Below are positions 9,384-11,852 of a stretch of DNA of 12,325 nt, one piece after another (position 1 is the stretch's first letter; every line of letters starts with the position of its first letter). Below the pieces are notes generated by a model. The model ran no database searches and was not told the DNA's origin. It saw nothing but the letters and a program-made list of their open reading frames with translations. This DNA comes from Nocardioides sp. (GTDB lineage: Bacteria; Actinomycetota; Actinomycetes; Propionibacteriales; Nocardioidaceae), in contig JARICB010000124.1 of assembly GCA_029264225.1 (NCBI GenBank), positions 1 through 12,325 on the forward strand. The letters are read 5' to 3'. The translations under genes and the position numbers were made by a program.

Positions 9384-11852
<2,469 letters not shown>

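Follow-up and report, generated by a model that had tools for sequence, protein, structure and literature searches.

An in-frame TAG codon in secA of a Nocardioides-like draft genome, probably a consensus error or a minority-strain base

The secA gene of this Nocardioides-like draft genome carries a single in-frame TAG at codon 823, at positions 11850–11852 of the plus strand, and this stop is private to the genome among the relatives examined. At this codon the consensus of the thinly assembled draft probably carries a wrong base or one contributed by a minority strain, in which case the actual secA would encode a normal SecA of full length, about 950 residues. The main rival explanation is that the stop arose recently by mutation and leaves a tail-less SecA that still works.

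The window, which is the whole stretch of DNA analysed (12,325 bases), is one entire contig (C163) of a 2.9 Mb draft that is in 451 contigs and is 83.86% complete. From Pfam matches, its genes are, in order, an S-adenosylhomocysteine hydrolase, a response regulator and a histidine kinase (presumably MtrA and MtrB), LpqB, a phosphoribosyltransferase-like protein with a match slightly below the cut-off (presumably ComF-type), a ribosome-associated S30AE protein, a LuxR-type response regulator, an AlkZ-like protein, and secA. The nearest named relatives of the SecA are from Nocardioides, with 74–86% identity to members of the genus and 86% identity to the SecA of the closest genome compared. It is the only secA found in this genome, as would be the case for the housekeeping SecA. 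The one other match in the genome search, on contig C110, comes from a SEC-C motif read in a different frame, so that the second secA for which the initial annotation suggested a search was not found.

As written, the secA reading frame (9384–11852, plus strand) has a GTG start at 9384, followed through 822 codons to the TAG, and encodes a complete catalytic core. Matches above the cut-off cover PF07517 (SecA_DEAD, residues 11–382), PF01043 (PP_bind, the preprotein cross-linking domain, residues 231–339), PF21090 (P-loop, residues 398–611), and PF07516 (Wing and Scaffold, residues 613–820, profile positions 1–193 of 200). Beyond the TAG, the same phase stays open for 127 codons to a TGA at 12234–12236 (11853–12236, plus strand), encoding the linker and the metal-binding end with an intact SEC-C motif at 12138–12191 of the plus strand (PF02810, residues 96–113 of the tail piece, 38.3 bits against a cut-off of 20.4). 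Both the stop and the open, family-like tail behind it are therefore as first described; core and tail are not in a single uninterrupted frame, with the TAG at codon 823 standing between them. About 475 bases separate the TAG from the end of the contig.

In 120 other secA loci the residue aligned to codon 823 is Leu in 112, Ile in 5, and Val in 3, which agrees with the earlier description of a conserved leucine position, and there is a stop in none. Some genomes are present twice in this set, and a further locus, L116, was excluded as it is not a secA. In a search of 58 genomes, codon 823 is covered in 56 of the 57 others, G004 having fragments only, and no stop is present at the site in any of the 56. 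Among 160 database proteins, one of which is the 822-residue product of the window itself, the site is Leu in 157, Val in one, and Met in one. There is no near-identical SecA from another sample among the best 120 of 7,996 matches (8,000 candidates scored), where the closest other protein is 92% identical over residues 400–822; this counts against an error to the extent that there is no such sequence for comparison.

The codon present at the site in the relatives is CTG in 77 of the 120 loci, CTC in 30, and TTG in 3, and within the window's secA TTG accounts for 5 of 75 leucine codons read. Since the relatives mostly have CTG or CTC, the T-to-A change from TTG that was originally proposed would hold only if this lineage had TTG there beforehand.

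In the case of G027, G037, and G045, a TGA apparently inside secA was considered as recoding but is the normal end of the gene past the zinc finger, and the TGA flagged in secA of G050 closes the frame in an ordinary basic tail. Five Nocardioides-like database SecA proteins (P0124, P0128, P0130, P0136, and P0137) have tails that are seemingly out of frame beyond the core, which look like frameshifts in draft sequences. Residues 60–150 of the window's SecA appear by eye to be nearer to another Nocardioides group (P0025, P0027) than to that of the tail (P0002), possibly through recombination or a chimera.

The tail shows no sign of decay. Its pN/pS is 0.35 and 0.42 in two pairs of the window with a relative and 0.38 in one pair of relatives, values that come from the two usable of eight chosen relatives and speak just to the absence of visible decay, and its GC3 is 0.89 against 0.91 in the core. 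This undamaged state argues against an old pseudogene, as was suggested at the outset. The SEC-C pattern is present in 89 of the 118 readable secA loci, two of the 120 being without a frame. It is absent in 26, after three script misreadings (L039, L050, L068) were dropped from 29; L039 and L068, where the script had picked the wrong frame, have SecA matches to residues 949 and 942. The 26 include one Nocardioides genome twice (L042, L120) and also L046, where the frame runs off the contig. Not one of the 118 readable loci has a frame ending at codon 823: 89 reach SEC-C, and 27 continue past the site.

A recent, real nonsense mutation in the strain would shorten SecA to 822 residues that keep the entire motor but have no tail, and this protein would still drive secretion. 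What would be lost is autoinhibition by the linker, together with the metal-binding end that aids substrate recognition and contact with the ribosome or SecB. Such an event, and with it this loss, is on balance doubtful, but several observations favour it. The stop lies directly after the Wing and Scaffold domain, which ends at residue 820, and near the ends of several solved SecA chains, aligning with residue 775 of 778–779 (7xha, 3dl8), 762 of 765 (8ya0), and 814 of 822 (6gox), that is, 3 to 8 residues from ends that may reflect modelled residues only. Residue 823 presumably corresponds to about residue 826 of E. coli SecA. In the available text of PMC6620043, the tail of E. coli SecA is given as residues 833–901, and SecA without it complements the loss of secA in viable, cold-sensitive cells and has a basal ATPase activity that is more than tenfold higher. 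SecA827, which lacks 74 residues, works as the sole SecA in E. coli according to the available part of PMC13178939, and the two studies back the initial proposal that a tail-less SecA can work.

The predicted 822-residue product, if it is real, would be a complete motor ending at nearly the same point as the viable SecA827. The complete core, the viability of E. coli with tail-less SecA, and the frequent natural absence of the zinc finger together make a tail-less SecA credible. The E. coli proteins were engineered, however, whereas here there is a codon read from one draft genome. Against a nonsense mutation is the fact that no readable frame in the relatives ends at this site; in addition, ftsH and other genes of this assembly, with apparent lone TAGs of their own, would demand the same luck repeatedly.

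These other TAGs come from a survey of 100 contigs (680,540 bases, or 0.68 Mb, window included) for stops with in-frame coding signal on both sides. As the control, twenty 20-kb pieces were taken from G012, a relative with a single-contig, isolate-type assembly that is unlike the draft in quality. The first filter, on 80 contigs, gave 11 candidates here and 7 in the control, a loose filter on 100 contigs gave 43 and 20, and a stricter filter gave 23 and 10. Visual inspection set most of them aside as borders between genes or as antisense shadows. Pfam searches were made on five candidate pairs, L194, L199, and L258 from this genome and L284 and L285 from the control; L258, L284, and L285 have separate domains, or none, on the two sides of the stop. 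Judged mostly by eye, five conserved genes, including secA, each seem to be cut by one TAG in the 100 contigs, a number that leaves out candidates in L231, L238, L241, L252, and L262. No UGA or UAA is among the five, and no such case was seen, again mostly by eye, among the 7, 20, and 10 candidates flagged in the pieces of G012.

One of the four other cases is ftsH (L306, contig C68, 1728–1730, minus strand), identified by a TIGR01241 match that is the sole stop-bearing one among the listed matches of 24 genomes and is the only full-length ftsH match in this genome. Cut at the TAG, it would presumably lose the end of the FtsH protease domain. The protein is otherwise well conserved, with three private changes, all upstream of the stop. 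A DppB-type permease (L194, contig C282, 10298–10300, minus strand) is in two PF00528 pieces, covering positions 1–44 (25.4 bits, slightly under the cut-off of 26.4) and 60–184. In the CbiQ/EcfT gene (L199, contig C60, 8293–8295, plus strand), the first piece matches positions 2–151 of 216 of PF02361, and the short second piece has no family match but is alignable by eye to relatives; this case was flagged by the first filter only and was missed by the later two. The fifth gene is a PucR/CdaR-like regulator (L316, contig C79, 1991–1993, minus strand).

The relatives have different residues at these sites. At the ftsH site there is Glu in 16 of 25, the remainder having Asp, Arg, Ala, or Asn, while the permease site has Leu (8), Val (6), Ile (5), Cys (2), Gly (2), and Phe (1) among 24, four of them read through extended alignments. 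At the ecfT site there are four Leu and one Ile among five relatives, and the regulator site has Gln (2), Gly (1), and Ser (1) among four sequences read, one of which is this genome's own second copy. There are two such regulators here, at 6904–7854 of C45 and 1994–2980 of C79, 62% identical over the match, and one in each of 23 other genomes, that of G012 being in two overlapping pieces in different frames; the second copy may be a paralogue, or it may indicate that the bin is mixed. The permease match of relative G011 is listed with a TGA. As a further control, there is no stop among the 21 listed of 70 ABC_tran matches in this genome, which is a small sample.

The presence of lone TAGs in unrelated and otherwise clean genes, including the only full-length ftsH, favours a common, non-functional cause over a device built into secA, and assembly or strain mixture may be the cause that they share. 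That the residues of the relatives differ among the five sites fits independent hits better than one reassigned meaning of UAG. Under a uniform model, five nonsense hits correspond to a substitution rate of about 3.7e-4 per base, which would be high for a good consensus and possible for a thin draft. That all five stops are TAG is unremarkable, as TAG accounts for 70% of stop-prone single changes here (P = 0.17). TTG makes up 5.3% of TAG-prone codons, and at least two of five hits at such sites, noticed post hoc, has P = 0.025, so that Leu-type residues at two of the five sites (secA and ecfT) are mildly odd if these are single changes.

This last point, with Leu, Ile, or Val in the relatives at both sites and TTG rare, counts against a consensus error. 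So does the SecA sequence itself, in which no private change falls at a column that is otherwise invariant (118 unique sequences including the window's, 245 columns fully invariant), giving no added sign of error by what is a weak test; private changes, none of this kind in SecA and three in FtsH, are too weak a measure of error load to decide the matter. The two-piece regulator match of the control genome G012, which is outside the pieces surveyed, also speaks against it.

Partial reading of UAG as an amino acid, by amber suppression or readthrough, would yield tail-less and full-length SecA from one gene; it is possible, on indirect support, but unlikely. The intact tail with its codon bias is consistent with it, as is the fact that all five accepted lone stops are TAG. 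In the available text of PMC13178939, SecA occurs in wild-type E. coli as two isoforms, one of them about 70 residues shorter at the C-terminus and of unknown origin; the authors weigh an alternative translation product and name programmed frameshifting. That short form would resemble the product of a stop at the TAG, but the available part of that report mentions no stop codon behind it. In-frame stops under purifying selection are described as widespread in bacteria in the available text of Belinky et al. 2021 (PMC7918605), which likewise concerns stops such as a lone TAG in an otherwise intact gene. That large-scale count, however, took stops shared by at least two species, and the secA TAG is from a single genome; the same text describes in-frame stops in bacterial genes as mostly short-lived and expects artefacts to make up a substantial part of the raw cases.

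Against suppression, there is no CTA anticodon among the 42 tRNAs found, for all of which the anticodon was read, in an assembly that is about 84% complete and so lacks about 16% of the genome; the CTA tRNA that the initial annotation suggested looking for was thus not found in the assembled part. As a side observation, three of the five leucine tRNAs found by ARAGORN (L171, L172, L177) are only 75–77 bases long, and leucine tRNAs are usually about 85 bases. TAG is a regular terminator, ending 61 of 426 sampled coding ORFs here and 26 of 266 in G012, and as far as can be told from the sequence, UAG acts as a stop in this organism. A stop kept in the same place by relatives, which programmed readthrough would lead one to expect, is seen in 0 of the 120 loci, and the differing residues of the relatives at the five sites fit poorly as well. 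The RNA downstream of the secA TAG has nothing unusual in its fold and gives no stable local signal (z of -0.94 against shuffles, over one window length of 120 nt). UAG is followed by U, and the available text of PMC5289835 links this context to low readthrough. A broader version, in which the lineage tolerates or partly suppresses UAG genome-wide, secA giving both a tail-less and a tailed motor, ftsH being read through, and the suppressor tRNA lying in unassembled sequence, would be very unlikely.

Reassignment of UAG to an amino acid in this lineage, with loss of RF1, is the least credible of all. In its favour, there is no prfA match above the cut-off in this assembly, whereas all 9 of the other genomes searched have one. 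A single release factor was detected (PF00472, TIGR00019), presumably RF2, from its SPF motif and its neighbour ftsE. However, in relative G021 the DNA on one side of prfA aligns with contig C281 as far as base 341, and that on the other side aligns with contig C314 starting exactly at the last base of that contig, which places the RF1 gene in an assembly gap between the two. With the flanks of prfA falling at contig ends, and with TAG terminators as common here as in G012 instead of UAG being unused for termination, reassignment was rejected.

The three explanations first offered for the TAG, sequence or assembly error, recent mutation, and readthrough, have therefore not fared equally. The absence of recurrence, the lack of a CTA tRNA in the assembled part, the single secA, and the lone TAGs in unrelated genes favour an error or a recent mutation. 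Programmed readthrough specific to secA is left unsupported by the lack of conservation, the ordinary RNA fold, and the U after UAG. Literature searches gave no paper combining secA, nonsense mutation, readthrough, and amber, none on Nocardioides with a suppressor tRNA, and no match on metagenome error. On the preferred reading, a consensus error or strain mixture, sequencing reads would be expected to fail to bear out the secA TAG.

If the TAG is an error, the case shows that a conspicuous stop in a core gene of a draft calls first for a comparison with lone stops across the assembly, and these seem not to be absent elsewhere in this one. If it is real, the gene would encode in nature what has been engineered in E. 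coli, a tail-less SecA. Were UAG suppressed, secA would provide a genetic route to two SecA isoforms such as those described for E. coli in PMC13178939.
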